A stretch of 64,000 nt of DNA from Kineosporiaceae bacterium. GTDB lineage: Bacteria; Actinomycetota; Actinomycetes; Actinomycetales; Kineosporiaceae. The notes beneath the pieces are model-generated. The model saw only the letters and a list, made by a program, of their open reading frames with translations, was not told the DNA's origin and did not search any database. Position 1 is the stretch's first letter. Each line of letters begins with the position of its first letter. The stretch is taken from contig JAEUJN010000043.1 of the NCBI GenBank assembly GCA_016794595.1, positions 124,001-188,000 on the forward strand, in the 5' to 3' direction. This document shows positions 25,400 to 45,626 of this stretch, piece after piece. The position numbers were made by a program, and so were the translations under genes.

Positions 25400-25510
25400 C
25401 CCCAACCTGCTCATGCTCCGCGGGTGACGACTCGTGCTCCGTGGCCGACGGCCTGACAGCGATGTCAGCCGATCATGATCAGTCGGCTGCGGAGCATGAG
25501 CGGGTTGGGG
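25400..25510. repeat. 3'-end palindromic element, copy A
   Basis: Arms 25400-25421 and 25489-25510 match over 22 bp with one G-T pair and contain ATGCTCCGC / GCGGAGCAT. A second, partial CTCGTGCTCCG copy (25431-25441) follows the left arm in the same direction. The element begins five bases after the MATE stop codon. It shares design with copies B, C and D. Confidence 0.85.
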
Positions 25511-32354: not shown

Positions 32355-32467
32355 CCCCAAACCCGCTCATGCTCCCCAGGGCACCGGTCATGCTCCGCGG
32401 CCGACGCCATCGCGGACCCACCGGCGGAGCATCGCCGGTCACCCAGGGAGCATGAGCGGGTTTGGGG
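32355..32467. repeat. 3'-end palindromic element, copy B
   Basis: Perfect 22-bp arms (32355-32376 and 32446-32467) enclose a second pair of arms carrying ATGCTCCGC (32399 leftwards) and GCGGAGCAT (about 32424-32432). The element ends two bases from the GT87 stop codon, so it forms the 3' end of that leftward transcript, upstream of the rpsF leader. Confidence 0.88.
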
Positions 32468-38585: not shown

Positions 38586-38702
38586 CCCCCACAACCTGCT
38601 GATGCTCCGCAGGTGACGACTGATGCTCCGCTGGTGACGCGCGCGGGGGCGCCGCTGCGGAGTACGAGGAGTCACCTGCGGAGCATCAGCAGGTTGTGGG
38701 GG
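38586..38702. repeat. 3'-end palindromic element, copy C (32-bp perfect arms)
   Basis: Arms 38586-38617 and 38671-38702 are a perfect 32-bp inverted repeat with a 53-base loop. Within the loop, TGATGCTCCGC-T-GGTGAC repeats the left arm directly with one mismatch. The element lies between convergent ino1 and the DUF418 gene, and the DUF418 stop codon (38672-38674) is inside the right arm. Confidence 0.95.
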
Positions 38703-39955
38703 TGGGTGAGGTGGTGCAGGGCCCACTCGAGGGGGCCGCGTCGGTGGCGGAACAGCCCGCCCACCGCGAAGGCCACGATCCAGAACACCGCCAGTGCCCG
38801 GACGGCGGGCCCCGAGGTCTGCTGCAGGCTGCCCCCCGCCAGCCAGGACCAGTCCGTCCACCAGAGTGCAGCCAGGTGCCCCACGTACACGGTCAGCGCG
38901 ATCCGACCCGGCCACGCGAGCACCCCGGCAACGGCCGAGCCCGGCCGGCCCGCGGCGCCGAGCACCGCGGCCAGGGTGTGACAGGTCAGGGCCACCGCCA
39001 GGATCTGCACCAGCTCGAACGGTGTCCCGGTGTGATGGCCGGCGATCAGCAGCAGCGGCCACTCGGCGGCGTACGGCACGCCGTAGGCGTGATCGACCAA
39101 CCGCGCCGCCTCCTGCGGGTCGTACCCGGTGGCGACCGCCGTGGCAATGGCCTGCGCCCGCGGGTGCCAGACGGCCTCGACCAGCGCCGCTCCACCGAAC
39201 CCGAGCGCGAGCAGGCCCGAGCTGAGGGCCGCGAGCCGCGGCAACCCGGCGACACCTCGACTCAGCAGGCCGCAGCGGTGGGCGCCCCAGGCGATCAGGG
39301 CCAGGGCCAGCCAGGTGGGCACGGGGTAGGCGCCGTCCAGCAGCAGGATGCGGGCCGCGGTGCGGCCGCCGTCCGGACCGGTGAGCACGCCCCAGGTCAG
39401 TTCGAGCGGCGGCGGGCCGAGCCGTTCTGCCCAGTGGCGGCGCGCGGCCAGCGAGACGACCGGCCAGCCCACGGCCAGCACGCTTCCCAGGCCGATCAGC
39501 CCCGCCGGCGGCAGCCCGCGCAGCACCGGCGCCACCACGAACAGGACGCCGTACACGCACAGGATCACCAACACCGCCCCGGACAGCGGCTCGACCAGCA
39601 GTCCCACCCCGAACAGCAGGACGCCGCGCAGCAGCGTGGGCAGCCAGGCAGGCCCTTCGTGCAGGGTTCGGCCGGGGCGAGTGGCGTCCCCGGCGGATGT
39701 CGGGGGGTTCATCAGCGAGAGCGAGACCCCGGCCACGACCGCGAAGGTGCCGGCCGCGAACCCCGCCGCCAGGCTCAGCACCCGCCACGGACCGCTGGGG
39801 ACGTCGATGTGCGGACCCCCGACGTGCACCGCGATCATGCCGAGGATCGCCATGGTGCGGGTGACGTCGAGGGCGACCAGGCGCCCGCCGTCCGATTGCC
39901 TTGCCGTGGTGCCCACCCCCGCCCCCGACCCCCCGCCGTCCGCCATACCCCTCAT
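38672..39955 (-). CDS. DUF418-type membrane protein (acyltransferase-like fold)
   Basis: The polytopic protein has about 427 residues and ten or so helices. The N-terminal RLVALDVTRTMAILGMIAVHV is the opening seen in DUF418/DUF1624 and heparan-acetyltransferase-like proteins, and the C-terminal GPLEWALHHLTH is a DUF418 signature. These proteins are suspected to transfer acyl groups to surface sugars but are not well studied. Start ATG 39955 has GGGGGA just ahead; ATG 39946 is an alternative. The last nine residues (HPHNLLMLRR) are encoded by the palindromic repeat C, so the element has extended or replaced the original 3' end. Confidence 0.75.
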   Translation of the reverse strand: MRGMADGGGSGAGVGTTARQSDGGRLVALDVTRTMAILGMIAVHVGGPHIDVPSGPWRVLSLAAGFAAGTFAVVAGVSLSLMNPPTSAGDATRPGRTLHEGPAWLPTLLRGVLLFGVGLLVEPLSGAVLVILCVYGVLFVVAPVLRGLPPAGLIGLGSVLAVGWPVVSLAARRHWAERLGPPPLELTWGVLTGPDGGRTAARILLLDGAYPVPTWLALALIAWGAHRCGLLSRGVAGLPRLAALSSGLLALGFGGAALVEAVWHPRAQAIATAVATGYDPQEAARLVDHAYGVPYAAEWPLLLIAGHHTGTPFELVQILAVALTCHTLAAVLGAAGRPGSAVAGVLAWPGRIALTVYVGHLAALWWTDWSWLAGGSLQQTSGPAVRALAVFWIVAFAVGGLFRHRRGPLEWALHHLTHPHNLLMLRR

Positions 39956-39968
39956 GGTCCCCCGAACT

Positions 39969-40087
39969 CCCCCACAAACCCGCTCATGCTCCGCGGGGAG
40001 CCGGCCATGCTCCGCCGATGAGGCACACCCGGCGTCCACAGCGGAGCATGAGTCGTCACCAGCGGAGCATGAGCAGGTTGGTGCGGG
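39969..40087. repeat. 3'-end palindromic element, copy D
   Basis: Arms 39969-39994 and 40062-40087 match over 26 bp with three mismatches. Each side has a second motif copy: CATGCTCCGCC on the left and GCGGAGCATGAG at 40041-40052 on the right. It ends two bases from the stop codon of the iron-ADH gene, upstream of the DUF418 start. Confidence 0.88.
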
Positions 40088-40089
40088 GG

Positions 40090-41283
40090 TCAGCGGGGGG
40101 TGAGGGTCAGGGCGCGGTGGTAGGCGGCGGCGATGTCGTCGCGGGTCCAGGGGCCGGGTTCGACCGGGATCCAGCCGGCCAGGGCGACGTCGGTGAGCGG
40201 CTCGACGTCCGCCTCGTCGACCCCACACTCGCGCAGGGTGGGCAGGCCCACCTCGGCGAGCAGGCGGCGCACGGCGCGGACGGCGCGACTGCCGTCGCCC
40301 AGGCTCGCCGGCCCGCCACCGGGCTCACCGAGCGCGTCCGCGATCCGTTCCATCCGCTCGGGGGCATACCGGCGGTCGTGCTCCATCGACTCGGCCAGAA
40401 CCAGTCCCACGGTCAGCCCGTGCGGCAGGTGGTGCCGGCTGCCCAACGGATGGGCCAGGCTGTGCTCGGTGCCGGCCTCACTGACGTTCATCGCCAGCCC
40501 GGCCAGCAGCGCAGCCGCGGACAGGTCGGTGCGCGCGTCGAGATCCGACGGGTCCGCGAGCACGTCCGGCAGGGCCCGGGCCACCAGGCGCACCGCCTCC
40601 AACCCCAGGGCGTCCCCCACCGGGGTGTGCACGGCCGCGATCACCGAGCCGATTCCCTGACCGAGAGCGTCCACGCCGCCCCACAGGGTCGGACCCGGTG
40701 GCAGGCCGAGGGTCAGCCGCGGGTCGACGAAGCAGTACTCGGCCCGGTTCAGCGGGCTGGGCGCGGCCACCTTGAGGCCGCTCGTCGGGTCGAGCATCAC
40801 CACCCCACCGGTCACCTCGCTGCCGGTGCCCGCCGTCGTGGGCACGGTGATCAGCGGAACCGACGGCGCGGCAACGGGTTCGGGGTCACCGGGCCAGGTG
40901 TACCGGGCGATCGAGCCCGGGTTGGCCAGCAGCAGCCGGGCTCCCTTGGCGCTGTCGAGGGTCGATCCGCCACCGATGGCCAGGACGGCGTCCAGCCGGC
41001 CCTCTGCCCGAGCCTGCCGGGCGAGTGCCCCCAGGGCGTCGACCGACTCCAGGGTGGGCTCACCGGCGGGGACCTCGGCGGTGGTGACGACCCGGCCGGC
41101 GGACGCCAGGTCGGCCAGCAGGGCCCGTACCTCGGCCAGGGTGAGCACGACCGGGTCGGCGATCAGCAGGATCGCCCGCGCCCCCAGCGTGGTCAGGGCC
41201 TCCGGGAGCCGCTCCAGGGACCCCGGTCCGAAGTCGATCCGGACCGGCAGGTGATTGCGGAAGTCGGGAACCTGGCGTGCCAT
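40090..41283 (-). CDS. Iron-containing alcohol dehydrogenase family protein
   Basis: A group III (iron-type) dehydrogenase of 397 residues. The nucleotide-binding GGGSTLDSAKG is at 104-114 and TVPTTAGTGSEVT at 147-159. Metal ligands: D205 in GGVDALGQ, H274 and H278 in EHSLAHPLG, H288 in PHG. The usual first His (D-x3-H) is Gln209 here, so metal binding may be changed. AGGAGG four bases upstream fixes ATG 41283. It follows the glutamine-synthetase-like gene by 19 bp and ALDH before that. Together they suggest oxidation of an alcohol made from an amine substrate, by inference. Confidence 0.88.
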   Translation of the reverse strand: MARQVPDFRNHLPVRIDFGPGSLERLPEALTTLGARAILLIADPVVLTLAEVRALLADLASAGRVVTTAEVPAGEPTLESVDALGALARQARAEGRLDAVLAIGGGSTLDSAKGARLLLANPGSIARYTWPGDPEPVAAPSVPLITVPTTAGTGSEVTGGVVMLDPTSGLKVAAPSPLNRAEYCFVDPRLTLGLPPGPTLWGGVDALGQGIGSVIAAVHTPVGDALGLEAVRLVARALPDVLADPSDLDARTDLSAAALLAGLAMNVSEAGTEHSLAHPLGSRHHLPHGLTVGLVLAESMEHDRRYAPERMERIADALGEPGGGPASLGDGSRAVRAVRRLLAEVGLPTLRECGVDEADVEPLTDVALAGWIPVEPGPWTRDDIAAAYHRALTLTPR

Positions 41284-41302
41284 GGGTCCTCCTCGAAGCC
41301 GA

Positions 41303-42649
41303 TCAGATGAGCTCGAAGTAGCGCGAGCGTTCCCAGTCGGTGACCGAGTCCAGGAAGCGGTTCCACTCGAAGCGACCCAGCGTGGAGTGGTGATCCACCA
41401 CGGCGTCCCCGAAGGTGGCCCGGGCGAACGCCGAGCCGGCGAAGGCCTCGACCGCCTCACCGAGCTGATCCGGACCCCCGGACGGCGCGTCGTAAGGGTT
41501 GCCGGTCATCGGGTCCCCCGGGTCGGTCCGCTCGGTCAGGCCCTCACGCACCGAGGCCAACAACGCGGCGAGCACCAGGTAGGGATTGGCGTCCGCACCG
41601 GGCAGCCGGAACTCCATCCGCAGCGAGTCGGGATCGTGGCCGACCACCCGCACCGAGCAGAACCGGTGGTCGATCCCCCAGGTGCGTCCCCAGCCCGCGG
41701 CGTCCTGACCGCGCAGCCGGCGATAGGAGTTCACCGTCGGGGCGTACCAGGCCATCACCTCTCGCGCCCGGGCCAGTGACCCGCCGATCGCGTGCCGCAG
41801 CCGATCCGAGACGTGGTGCGGCGCCCCGTCGTCCCAGAAGATCGGGAGCCCGCCGGAGTCCCGGATCGACAGGTGCACGTGGCTCGAACATCCCGGGCCC
41901 CCGTCGAACGGCTTGGCCATGAACGTCGCCGACAGGCCGGCCCGGGCGGCCATCGAGCGGGTGGCCAACTTGTACAGCGCGTGCCGGTCCGCCATCGCCA
42001 GCGGTTCGCCGTGGCGCAGGGTCGTCTCCCACTGCCCCAGACCCCACTCGCCCTGCGAGGCCTCGATGTCGATCCCGCTGGCCTGCAACCGATTCCGGAC
42101 GTCGGCGAAGAACGGCTCGTACACCTCACCCTCGTAGATCGAGTAGTCGGCCGGGTTCAGGGTGGTCGGTTCGAGGTTGCGGTACCCGGCGAGGCGGCTC
42201 GCCCGCGGGTCGCCGCGATAGAGGTAGAACTCCAGCTCGGTGCCGACCGAGGCCCGCAAACCCGTTGCCTGCCAAGCGGACAGCTCGCGACGCAGCACCG
42301 TGCGCGGCGCCACCGCCGTGGGGGTGCCGTCCGGCTCGACAGCGTCCGCCAGGCAGATCGCCGTCCGGTCGAGCCACGCCGCCCGCCGTAAGGTGGACAG
42401 GTCCGGCATCAGGGCGACGTCCCCGATCCCGGTGTGCATGCCGGTGTAGGTCAACGACCCGTCGGCCAGCAGGGTGGCGTCCTGGCCGATGTCCCAGCCG
42501 AAGACGCAGTTCGACATGTGGACGCCACTGGTCAGTGCCGCACGGAATCCGTCGACCGTGGTTCGCCGGCCCGACAGGCGACCCTGGATGTCGGGAGTGG
42601 CCACGACCACCGTCTCGACGTCGGCGAGTGCCCCGCTGAACGGGTCCAT
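41303..42649 (-). CDS. Glutamine synthetase family protein (gamma-glutamyl-amide ligase type)
   Basis: The 448-residue GS-fold enzyme has glutamates for the metal site in VGTELEFYLYRG (E138, E140), ASQGEWGLGQWE, the HVHLSI histidine after GPGCSS, and the C-terminal RMEFRLPGADANPYL. It lacks the adenylylation region expected of GlnA1. This class includes PuuA and the Streptomyces GlnA3/GlnA4 enzymes, which join glutamate to polyamines or ethanolamine. The adjacent alcohol and aldehyde dehydrogenases fit the gamma-glutamylethanolamide route of GlnA4 best, by inference. GGAGG precedes ATG 42649; the same GGAGGACCCATG context begins the next gene. Confidence 0.85.
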   Translation of the reverse strand: MDPFSGALADVETVVVATPDIQGRLSGRRTTVDGFRAALTSGVHMSNCVFGWDIGQDATLLADGSLTYTGMHTGIGDVALMPDLSTLRRAAWLDRTAICLADAVEPDGTPTAVAPRTVLRRELSAWQATGLRASVGTELEFYLYRGDPRASRLAGYRNLEPTTLNPADYSIYEGEVYEPFFADVRNRLQASGIDIEASQGEWGLGQWETTLRHGEPLAMADRHALYKLATRSMAARAGLSATFMAKPFDGGPGCSSHVHLSIRDSGGLPIFWDDGAPHHVSDRLRHAIGGSLARAREVMAWYAPTVNSYRRLRGQDAAGWGRTWGIDHRFCSVRVVGHDPDSLRMEFRLPGADANPYLVLAALLASVREGLTERTDPGDPMTGNPYDAPSGGPDQLGEAVEAFAGSAFARATFGDAVVDHHSTLGRFEWNRFLDSVTDWERSRYFELI

Positions 42650-42709
42650 GGGTCCTCCGCTGGTCTCCGGGGTGACGATCACCGATCGGGCAGCCCGCCC
42701 GCCGCCGAC

Positions 42710-44224
42710 TCAGATCGGCGCATCGGGATTGTCCACCCCCACGATGCGGTTCCCCCGGAAGAACTCCAGCGCCTCGCCGGCCCCGTGCCCGCCGTACCCG
42801 CTGGTGCCCCAGAAGCTCTGGTGCGAGGCGTCGGTCAGGTCGAGCAGGCTGGTTCCGTTGACCCTGATCTCCCCTCCGCGCAGGTGCGCCCCGAGAGCGA
42901 GCGCCTGCTCGACGTCCGCCCCGAACACGAAACCCGCCAACCCGTCCGTGGTCTGGTTGGCCAGAGCGAGCGCCTCGGCGTCCCCACTCACCCGGTGCAC
43001 GCTCACCACCGGACCGAAGATCTCGGCCTCGGCATGCCCCGGTTCCAGGTCGGTCAGCACCGTCGGGGCCATGAACCACCCCTCGGCGGGCAAGGACACC
43101 TCGGGGATCAGTGCCCGGGCCCCCAGCTCGACCGCGCCGCTGACCTGGTCGGTGAGCAACTCGAGGTGGCGCCGGTAGGCGATCGGACCCATCTGGCTCG
43201 ACGGCTCGGTGCTCGGGCCGATCCGGACCCGGGCCAGCTCGGCCAGCAGGGCCTCGATCAGCTCGTCGTGCAGCGCGGACGGCACGAACACCCGGCCCGG
43301 TCCCTCGCACCACTGGCCGTTCAGCTTGGTCATGCCGGAGGCCAGCGCGGCCGCCGTGCGTGCCAGGTCGGCGTCCGCCCGGATGATCGCCGGGTTGTTC
43401 CCGGCCAGCTCCAGCTGCAGGCGGGTGAAGTTCGCCGCGGCCGAGGCGGCCACCGCCCGGCCGGCCACCGTTCCCCCGGTCATCGCGATCGCCCGCACCC
43501 GCGGGTCACCGACCAACTGGGCCCCGACCCGGCCGTCGCCGTGCACCAGCTGGAAGACCCCGTCGGGCAGTCCCGCCGCCTGCACGGCATCGGCGAACAG
43601 GGTGGAGGTCGAGGGCGCCCACTCGCTCGGCTTGAGGATCACCGGGCAGCCGGCCGCCAGGGCCGCCACGGACTTGCCGATGGCGGTCGGCAGGGACGTG
43701 TTCCACGGACCCACCACCACCGCCGGTCCCCAGGGGTCACGACGCAGGAGCACCCGGCCCGGACCACGACCGGGCAGCTCCCGGACCGTTCCCGCGGTGC
43801 GCAACTCCTCGACCAGCTCCCGGACATGGTGGGCGAAGCCCGCCGCCATCGGGGTGGTGACCCCGATCACGATGCCGGTGTTCAGGGACTCGGTCACCGC
43901 CATCGCACGGCCCCGCGCCTCGAGTTCGTCGGCCAGGCGCAGCAGCACCTCGGCCCGCCCCTCGACCCCCGCATCGGCCCAGGTCCGATCGAGATGGGTG
44001 GAGTGCGCCGTGGCCAGCGCTTGCTCGACCACGTCCGGCGCACTCGCCCGACGAGCGGCCAGCGGCGTCCCGGTGTTCGGATCGTCCAGCGTGCCGTCCA
44101 GCAGCAACCCGGGAACCTGACGCCGTCCGGCCACCAGATCGAGACTCACCGGCAGGGCAGCCCCCGGCCCGCCGAGACCCACGGCGGCATCGCCCGTGCG
44201 TGATGCCGCACTCCCCGAGTTCAC
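42710..44224 (-). CDS. Aldehyde dehydrogenase of the amine/alcohol catabolic cluster
   Basis: An ALDH of 504 residues with the Rossmann block PWNTSLPTAIGKSVAALAAG, cofactor lysine in ILKPSEWAP (K198), general base E272 in LQLELAGNNP and catalytic Cys306 in LNGQWCEGPGR. The first 40 residues are not part of the ALDH fold. The start is GTG 44224. It is first of three leftward genes (ALDH, GS-like, iron-ADH). Its promoter region is shared with the divergent MFS gene, only 100 bp away. It would oxidise the aldehyde made by the iron-ADH. Confidence 0.9.
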   Translation of the reverse strand: MNSGSAASRTGDAAVGLGGPGAALPVSLDLVAGRRQVPGLLLDGTLDDPNTGTPLAARRASAPDVVEQALATAHSTHLDRTWADAGVEGRAEVLLRLADELEARGRAMAVTESLNTGIVIGVTTPMAAGFAHHVRELVEELRTAGTVRELPGRGPGRVLLRRDPWGPAVVVGPWNTSLPTAIGKSVAALAAGCPVILKPSEWAPSTSTLFADAVQAAGLPDGVFQLVHGDGRVGAQLVGDPRVRAIAMTGGTVAGRAVAASAAANFTRLQLELAGNNPAIIRADADLARTAAALASGMTKLNGQWCEGPGRVFVPSALHDELIEALLAELARVRIGPSTEPSSQMGPIAYRRHLELLTDQVSGAVELGARALIPEVSLPAEGWFMAPTVLTDLEPGHAEAEIFGPVVSVHRVSGDAEALALANQTTDGLAGFVFGADVEQALALGAHLRGGEIRVNGTSLLDLTDASHQSFWGTSGYGGHGAGEALEFFRGNRIVGVDNPDAPI

Positions 44225-44311
44225 ACGACCCTCCCGAACGCCTGACCGTCCGTGACCGCCCCCATGATCACGCTCGCTGGCGACTGCGTCCAGTCAGCGT
44301 GGCCGGGTGCG

Positions 44312-44317
44312 TAGCCT
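44312..44317 (+). promoter_or_regulatory. -10 element (TAGCCT) of a leaderless MFS transcript
   Basis: TAGCCT is followed by seven bases and GTG 44325. An inverted repeat GACTG-CGTC-CAGTC (44282-44295) sits about where an operator or -35 region would be. Confidence 0.5.
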
Positions 44318-44324
44318 GGCCAGC

Positions 44325-45626
44325 GTGAACGTGTACGGACGGTTTGTCGATGATCTGCGCATCGTGATGCGCGGACGCGACTTCCGCCGGCTGTTCGCCA
44401 CCAGGCTGTCGTCCCAGTTCGCGGACGGCACGTTCGAGGCGGCGCTGGCCAGCCTGTTCTTCTTCTCTCCCCAGCGAGCGGCAACCGCCGGGGCGATCGC
44501 CGCCGCGTTCGCGGTGGCGATCCTGCCCTACACGCTGGTCGGGCCGTTCGCCGGGGTGGTGCTCGACCGGTGGAGCCGCCGCCAGATCCTGCTGCGGGCC
44601 AACCTGATCCGGGCCGTGGTGGTGATCGCGGTGGCCGCGATGGTCGCGACGGGCCGGATCGGGCTGCCGCTGTACGTCGTGGTGCTGGCCTGCCTGTCGA
44701 TCAACCGGTTCTTCCTGGCCGGGCTCGGCGCGAGCCTGCCGCACGTGGTCGTGCGGGACGAACTGGTCATGGCCAACGCCGTCTCGACCACGTCGGGCAC
44801 CGTGATGGCCCTGGTGGGCGCGGGGGTGGCGGTCGGCGTCCGGAGCCTGCTCGGCTCGGGTGACGGGACCGACGCCGTGATCCTGCTGGTCGCCGCCGGC
44901 TGGTACCTGATCTCGGCCGCGCTGGCCTCGCGCATGCCACCCGGGCTGCTCGGCCCCGATGACGCCGACCGGCGGCCATGGCGGGATGCCGGAGCTGCCG
45001 CGCGCGCCGTCCTCACCGGGCTGGCGCAGGCCGCTGAGCACCTGTGGCACCGCCGGCCGGCGTTCGACGCACTCGCCGTGGTGGCCGGCCAACGCTTCGC
45101 CTACGGCGTGGTCACCGTGGCCATGTTCCTGCTGTGCCGGGCGACGTTCGCCGACCCGGCCGACCCGGACGCCGGGGCGCTGGCCCTGGCCACGGCGTTC
45201 ATGACGTCGGGGGCGGGCTTCTTCGCCGCCGCCGTCATCACCCCGGCGGTGACCCGCCGGATGCGCCTCGAGAGCTGGATCCTCATCTGCTGCCTGGCGG
45301 CCGCTGCCCTGTCGGCCGGATTCGCGCTCTGGCTCACCTACCCGATGGCCCTGGCCGCGGGGTTCGCCCTCGGGATCGCGATGCAGGGCACCAAGATCTG
45401 CGTCGACGCGCTGGTCCAGGGCCACACCGATGACGTCTACCGGGGGCGGGCGATGTCCTTCTACGACCTGCTGTTCAACCTCACCTTCGTGGCCGCGGCG
45501 GGGGCCGCTGCCCCGGTGCTGCCGGACGACGGGTACTCACCCGCGGCGTTCGCGGTCGTGGCGCTGGTCTACCTGGCCACCGGCCTGGCCTATCGGGCGG
45601 CGAGGTGGCGGGTGACCGCCGGGTGA
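44325..45626 (+). CDS. Major facilitator superfamily transporter
   Basis: The 433-residue protein has about twelve helices. The first cytoplasmic loop VVLDRWSRRQILLRANLIRA carries the MFS motif-A pattern (D-R-x-x-R-R). LFATRLSSQFADGTFEAALASLFFFSP is the first helix region. It resembles drug or metabolite exporters, but the cargo is unknown. The frame is open upstream to 44307, but that would translate the -10 element, so GTG 44325 (VNVYGRF) is preferred. It is divergent from the amine cluster and could export or import a related compound. Confidence 0.88.
   Translation: MNVYGRFVDDLRIVMRGRDFRRLFATRLSSQFADGTFEAALASLFFFSPQRAATAGAIAAAFAVAILPYTLVGPFAGVVLDRWSRRQILLRANLIRAVVVIAVAAMVATGRIGLPLYVVVLACLSINRFFLAGLGASLPHVVVRDELVMANAVSTTSGTVMALVGAGVAVGVRSLLGSGDGTDAVILLVAAGWYLISAALASRMPPGLLGPDDADRRPWRDAGAAARAVLTGLAQAAEHLWHRRPAFDALAVVAGQRFAYGVVTVAMFLLCRATFADPADPDAGALALATAFMTSGAGFFAAAVITPAVTRRMRLESWILICCLAAAALSAGFALWLTYPMALAAGFALGIAMQGTKICVDALVQGHTDDVYRGRAMSFYDLLFNLTFVAAAGAAAPVLPDDGYSPAAFAVVALVYLATGLAYRAARWRVTAG

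Follow-up and report, generated by a model that had tools for sequence, protein, structure and literature searches.

Related systems and the operon

Gamma-glutamylation routes allow amino alcohols to be used without free toxic aldehydes or microcompartments. According to the accessible parts of PMC6529630 and PMC9397018, the Streptomyces GlnA4 route comprises GlnA4 (SCO1613), the dehydrogenase SCO1611, the aldehyde dehydrogenase (ALDH) SCO1612 and the hydrolase SCO1615. The available text of PMC9397018 also presents a proposed gamma-glutamyl-ethanolamine route in Chromohalobacter salexigens that combines proteins of families PF00120, PF00465 ('iron-dependent dehydrogenase'), PF00171 and PF05013, credits it to Gerlt 2016 and cites San Francisco 2015. 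On a plasmid of Paracoccus denitrificans PD1222, a hydrolase, three tripartite ATP-independent periplasmic (TRAP) transporter genes, a glutamine synthetase (GS)-like gene, an ALDH gene and an iron-containing alcohol dehydrogenase (Fe-ADH) gene stand in a row, and Qingshengfaniella alkalisoli is arranged alike. Here we describe a three-gene operon in a 64,000-nucleotide stretch of a Kineosporiaceae bacterium (assembly GCA_016794595.1, contig JAEUJN010000043.1, positions 124,001 to 188,000; hereafter the window) that in our judgement probably serves the breakdown of a small primary amino alcohol, with ethanolamine or a close homologue as the likeliest substrate. The pathway idea is already published and the pathway is known in outline; new here are the ligase subfamily, the exchange of a short-chain dehydrogenase/reductase (SDR) for an Fe-ADH, and the independence of this exchange from the proteobacterial operons. 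A literature search that reached few subscription papers turned up no account of an actinobacterial version with an Fe-ADH. The operon consists of the following genes:

42710..44224, minus strand: ALDH, proposed gamma-glutamyl-aminoaldehyde dehydrogenase (PF00171, 332.7 bits, 4e-99; GTG start at 44224 uncertain)
41303..42649, minus strand: GS-like ligase, predicted gamma-glutamyl-amine ligase (PF00120, 281.9 bits, 9e-84)
40090..41283, minus strand: Fe-ADH, proposed gamma-glutamyl-amino-alcohol dehydrogenase (PF00465, 123 bits, and PF25137, 120.2 bits)

All three frames are open and lie in the order ALDH–ligase–Fe-ADH with operon-like spacing. Together with the Pfam matches, from a scan covering eight window genes, this confirms the adjacency on one strand given in the preliminary description. 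The Fe-ADH starts at ATG 41283, preceded by GAGGAGG and 19 bases past the ligase stop, and its PF00465 score exceeds the curated cut-off of 31.3. For the ligase, ATG 42649 (GGAGG upstream, 60 bases past the ALDH stop) is a more probable start than the open GTG 42682. Four other actinobacterial contigs (L037-L040) carry the identical one-strand order, with identities to the window of 64-71% for the ligase, 49-60% for the ALDH and 61-66% for the Fe-ADH; because the order recurs, the gene trio is more than a chance arrangement.

Compared with the C. salexigens and Paracoccus type, the window shares adjacent PF00120, PF00465 and PF00171 genes. However, identities to the Paracoccus proteins are 39% (ligase), 36% (ALDH) and 32% (Fe-ADH), the Paracoccus order is ligase–ALDH–Fe-ADH, its Fe-ADH has the canonical first histidine ligand and another origin, where the window protein has Gln209, and the window lacks a TRAP transporter and its genome a PF05013 gene. 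The Paracoccus ligase matches the solved structure 5dm3, which we take to be a C. salexigens protein, with 603 bits, against 239.5 for the window ligase. Like the Streptomyces GlnA4 cluster, as far as the accessible part of PMC6529630 describes it, the window combines a GS-like ligase, an ALDH and an alcohol dehydrogenase step. That step belongs to an SDR in Streptomyces and to the Fe-ADH here; furthermore, the window ligase belongs to a subfamily of its own whose flap differs, and the regulator, permease and amidotransferase of the GlnA4 cluster were not found at the locus. Uncharacterised GS–SDR–ALDH clusters of Microbacterium and freshwater actinobacteria share the ligase subfamily (48-53% identity) and have ALDHs 44-48% identical to that of the window, but they carry an SDR in place of the Fe-ADH and usually a hydrolase and a GntR-type regulator, with an amino acid–polyamine–organocation (APC) permease in Microbacterium and Conexibacter.

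Two unrelated dehydrogenases alternate beside the ligase

Among 34 related loci (L037-L069 and L099; counts by tblastn), the ligase is retained, usually with the ALDH, and an SDR mostly occupies the place of the Fe-ADH. An SDR lies on the ligase strand within 2.5 kb, with no Fe-ADH there, in 28 loci, and an Fe-ADH stands beside the ligase in five (L037-L040 and L065); L069, whose ligase is 42% identical, is the sole locus with neither. The Fe-ADH locus L040 has an extra SDR match of 33% beyond its Fe-ADH. In L065, a Thermoleophilia contig, the Fe-ADH is divergent and adjoins the ligase, and no ALDH was found within 8 kb on one side, the contig stopping 427 bases past the ligase on the other. 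Because two unrelated alcohol dehydrogenases alternate beside the ligase, the second step would be an alcohol oxidation, and the substrate therefore an amino alcohol. On this comparison, alcohol oxidation probably passed from the SDR to the Fe-ADH.

Two observations concern the freshwater contigs themselves. Seven of them (L053, L055-L058, L062 and L063) have, a few kb upstream of the SDR-type cluster, a further GS-like gene accompanied by an amidotransferase gene of its own; this GS-like gene shows 31-33% identity to that of the window. Two public metagenome-assembled genome records labelled Bifidobacterium breve (L059 and L062) hold the freshwater-actinobacterial cluster and may thus be mislabelled bins.

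The ligase defines a subfamily outside the GlnA4 clade

Ten residues that GlnA4 is listed as using for metal, glutamate and ATP binding (PMC6529630, in the part available) are present at equivalent positions of the window ligase (E149, E151, E212, E219, H268, H270, R322, R345, E357 and R359 in the 459-residue numbering). The protein scores below the cut-offs of both type I GS (TIGR00653; 186.6 against 429.15 bits) and gamma-glutamylputrescine synthetase PuuA (NF045547; 212.2 against 650 bits). In a 43-row tree, the window ligase and three relatives form an Fe-ADH clade (100/100) nested within a 16-row subfamily clade (100/100), whose 11 non-Fe-ADH rows are all SDR-type, with Microbacterium nearest to the Fe-ADH clade (98/97); the SDR was confirmed per locus for 9 of these 11 rows, L121 and L122 lying outside the 34-locus set. 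Nine GlnA4-like rows form one side of a 100/100 branch with the window ligase outside, and the clades next to the subfamily are this GlnA4-like group and the Paracoccus/Thermomicrobium rows. Judged by this tree, the window ligase belongs to a subfamily separate from the GlnA4 clade, and the description of it as GlnA4-type does not hold in the strict sense; the GlnA4-clade gene of this genome lies on another contig, C58.

The label 'GlnA4-like' rests on the gene content of the group's Streptomyces-like members, which agrees with that given for the glnA4 cluster in a figure legend of PMC6529630, rather than on a sequence named SCO1613. Most GlnA4-like loci have GS, ALDH, amidotransferase and GntR-type regulator matches. 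In a survey of 10 loci other than the genome's own, used for SDR and permease alone since its Streptomyces-like ALDH query was poorly framed (4 stops masked), 8 showed an SDR and 7 an ethanolamine-permease-like gene, these permeases sharing 44-47% identity with a Thermomicrobium protein that scores above the NCBIfam ethanolamine-permease cut-off (436 against 381.75 bits). Separately, a Thermomicrobium roseum plasmid (L258) holds a GS-like ligase, an SDR and an above-cut-off ethanolamine permease in a row, a candidate SDR-type ethanolamine cluster.

The flap of the window ligase is also distinctive. An A-G-x-G motif occurs in 17 of 17 subfamily rows (chosen by the analyst; 16 of them in the ligase tree). 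Of the 69 GS-like rows outside the subfamily, none has it and 66 have A-P; the window ligase is not of the S-F-A-P type. DHRF or EHRF replaces DNRT in the window, L037, L038 and L178, and the other 13 subfamily rows, the Fe-ADH locus L065 included, have DNRT. In GlnA4, the flap holds a residue change linked to amine choice, according to the portion of PMC6529630 available, and the substrate of the window ligase may therefore differ.

The Fe-ADH was recruited separately and carries an ordinary metal-ligand variant

A tree of 32 rows places the Fe-ADHs of the operon with Fe-ADHs of small-genome actinobacteria and away from those of the proteobacterial operons. A single clade with the Paracoccus and Qingshengfaniella enzymes is rejected by the approximately unbiased (AU) test (p-AU 6.46e-05, a cost of 337.6 log-likelihood units), a rejection more secure than the exact branching, given the long branches. 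The tree labels as 'cluster' one Fe-ADH, from genome G627, that has no ligase or ALDH and that stood outside the AU-test group. These comparisons indicate that the Fe-ADH was recruited independently of the proteobacterial operons.

Numbered from ATG 41283, the metal-ligand positions of the window Fe-ADH are Asp205, Gln209, His274 and His288. The canonical Asp-His-His-His set is thus not present, with the first histidine alone changed, as the preliminary description had noticed. The change is real, yet the idea of a specially altered metal site does not survive comparison. Among 52 Fe-ADHs, selected for their similarity to the window enzyme and not a census, the first-histidine position holds glutamine in 29 and histidine in 23; glutamine is spread over the 6 closest sequences (window copy included), 16 sister sequences and 7 of a third group. 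By alignment, glutamine also occupies this position in the solved Oenococcus oeni enzyme ADH3 (4FR2), a member of the same family annotated as a 1,3-propanediol dehydrogenase (scoring 158.9 bits against the window enzyme) and crystallised with Ni2+, as the accessible part of PMC5125639 reports. Because glutamine is frequent in relatives and present in this Ni2+-crystallised enzyme, Gln209 reads from the alignments as a subfamily trait and an ordinary ligand variant without defect. A damaged or unique metal site was set aside, glutamine being fixed throughout the subfamily.

The sister Fe-ADHs (L196-L206, and L161 on the genome's own contig C81) show a second change, from histidine to glutamine four residues past the kept His274 (motif EHSLGQ against EHSLAH), and their neighbours are not constant.

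A predicted amino-alcohol pathway and its alternatives

In the proposed pathway, the GS-like ligase would use ATP to couple the gamma-carboxyl of glutamate to the amine, the Fe-ADH would oxidise the free alcohol of the gamma-glutamyl-amino-alcohol to an aldehyde with NAD(P), taking in this lineage the role of the relatives' SDR, and the ALDH would convert the aldehyde to an acid, gamma-glutamyl-glycine in the case of ethanolamine. A PuuD-like (PF07722) hydrolase encoded elsewhere in the genome would then split the product into glutamate and the amino acid. Support for the pathway class comes from the alternation of SDR and Fe-ADH in relatives and from the matching steps of the published ethanolamine route; in this respect the gamma-glutamylation route with these three activities, as first suggested, stands. 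The recurrence of the gene order on four contigs and the ethanolamine-permease-like genes of the neighbouring GlnA4-like group speak for it too. The apparently intact catalytic residues also count for it: those of the ligase, and Asn175, Glu272 and Cys306 of the ALDH, present at what we take to be its catalytic positions. We infer the substrate, the reaction directions and the fourth step; ethanolamine is favoured and another amino alcohol possible.

At the locus, neither a dedicated hydrolase nor a dedicated transporter was found. The source genome has eight PF07722 matches, none on the contig of the window, so a hydrolase near the operon was set aside; since PF07722 is present in all 5 genomes searched, the fourth step could run in trans. 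A PF05013 hydrolase was found in 0 of 7 genomes, that of the window included (control positive in 1 of 14 named genomes), and with none in the source genome this candidate for the fourth step was set aside. Of the six GS-family genes in the source genome, those on contigs C58, C74 and C81 are each accompanied by a neighbouring PuuD-like gene. On C58 (L159), at about 5.7-9.6 kb, a GlnA4-clade ligase gene lies with an ALDH gene and a PuuD-like hydrolase gene, with no SDR or permease in the 15-kb stretch.

Several observations weigh against this reading. Given the GlnA4-clade gene with its ALDH and hydrolase on C58, a second ethanolamine route would be redundant. The flap and the change from DNRT to DHRF may point to another amine, and the literature searched gave no known substrate for any enzyme of the ligase subfamily. 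A PuuD-like amidotransferase match lies within 8 kb in 24 of 28 SDR loci but in 0 of 5 Fe-ADH loci. The Fe-ADH label on the ligase tree needs two changes, and the five Fe-ADH loci represent at most two events rather than five independent ones. Lastly, neither a ligase nor an ALDH accompanies the G627 relative of the window Fe-ADH on its contig of 14.7 kb, and in the sister group from small-genome actinobacteria a ligase was found in 0 of 11 loci (L196-L206), so the Fe-ADH is not bound to amines in general. Gene lists in the sister group were read for L196, L197, L201 and L161 alone; L197 has ALDH, SDR and PuuD-like genes in the vicinity.

The strongest alternative, which we hold to be rather unlikely, is a different amino alcohol (for example 3-amino-1-propanol, 1-amino-2-propanol or alaninol), with the ligase pocket and the dehydrogenase having changed together. 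The strict confinement of the A-G-x-G flap to the subfamily, the occurrence of DHRF or EHRF solely in its four operon-type Fe-ADH rows and the GlnA4-clade cluster already in the genome speak for it, but the sequence itself names no substrate, and the C58 cluster, which lacks an SDR and a permease, may not be a full ethanolamine route. A broader formulation, which we advance tentatively and consider possible but on the doubtful side, is that of a separate actinobacterial gamma-glutamyl-amino-alcohol subfamily, alongside GlnA4, in which an SDR gave way to an Fe-ADH with a glutamine ligand, without connection to the proteobacterial Fe-ADH operons, and the altered A-G-x-G/DHRF pocket points to an amine other than ethanolamine.

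Glutamylation of a polyamine or plain monoamine, in the manner of PuuA, GlnA2/GlnA3 or IpuC and with the Fe-ADH as an unrelated passenger, is improbable. The top NCBIfam profiles are gamma-glutamylputrescine synthetase for the ligase (212 bits) and aminobutyraldehyde dehydrogenase for the ALDH (265 bits), but both scores fall far under the cut-offs (650 and 615 bits), and the Fe-ADH is a conserved neighbour of the ligase. The eight window genes scanned include no PuuB-like oxidase, nor the cytochrome P450 and ferredoxin that accompany Paenarthrobacter ipuC (35% identity). Polyamines and isopropylamine thus appear less likely as substrates, because a putrescine route gives an alcohol dehydrogenase no role and neither a PuuB-like oxidase nor a P450 is among the scanned genes.

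It is a little less probable still that the Fe-ADH runs in reverse or on another alcohol and detoxifies an aldehyde, with Gln209 yielding a weak or metal-free enzyme. One metal ligand is indeed changed, and maleylacetate reductases of the superfamily are metal-free (PMC5125639, in the part available); however, the same portion of that source ties metal loss to the Asp position, which the window enzyme retains, glutamine is fixed in all 22 closest sequences, and the glutamine-bearing O. oeni enzyme was crystallised with Ni2+. Choline-to-betaine oxidation, with the Fe-ADH as GbsB, the ALDH as GbsA and the ligase unrelated, is very improbable: choline dehydrogenase GbsB is the top NCBIfam profile of the Fe-ADH (216 bits) and the ALDH matches betaine-aldehyde dehydrogenase (233 bits), but the cut-offs are 550 and 668.6 bits, and choline lacks a free amine that could be glutamylated, yet the ligase stands mid-operon and is conserved.

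Genomic setting

The operon is flanked by two further genes:

44307..45623, plus strand: divergent major facilitator superfamily (MFS) transporter, a backbone gene adjoining INO1 and probably outside the pathway (PF07690)
38675..40000, minus strand: DUF418/HGSNAT_cat-type membrane protein in the gap between INO1 and the operon (PF04235, 2.5e-06; PF07786, 2.3e-05; start uncertain)

Ligases at least 50% identical to that of the window form a rare set, found in 8 of 394 genomes of the class including the window's own, and the best ligase in 12 same-family genomes reaches at most 39% identity. In three of five family regions, INO1 is followed after 104-860 bases by the MFS gene with no operon between; one of the remaining two stops at the contig end and the other shows no MFS gene. 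In the window, four genes separate INO1 and the MFS gene. This pattern fits an insertion of the operon in this lineage, although loss elsewhere is possible too. As first described, the MFS protein is the only transporter near the operon, being the sole one among the eight genes scanned; because its gene adjoins INO1 without the operon in those three regions, it is a conserved backbone gene, probably outside the pathway, and it was set aside as the pathway transporter. The DUF418/HGSNAT_cat-type protein was not found in any of the five family regions and gives no sign of pathway membership. An Rfam scan of the window gave no matches, and no consensus promoters or terminators were found between 39900 and 44400.

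An intergenic repeat, GCGGAGCATG-N11-GCGGAGCATG, occurs in the window at 38588-38700, 39980-40073, 25400-25510 and 32363-32396. It is often arranged in facing pairs that would fold into an extended hairpin (-66.5 kcal/mol and z -5.6 for 39978-40078) and has no Rfam match. The strict tandem GCGGAGCATG pattern is found at 17 places in the source genome, at none with a reversed control and at none in 12 other family genomes.

Implications

If the proposed amino-alcohol pathway is correct, the oxidation step of such routes would be interchangeable between unrelated dehydrogenases, and the Fe-ADH family would have been recruited to it at least twice. It would also give a name to a ligase subfamily of soil and freshwater actinobacteria, with a substrate that is directly testable.

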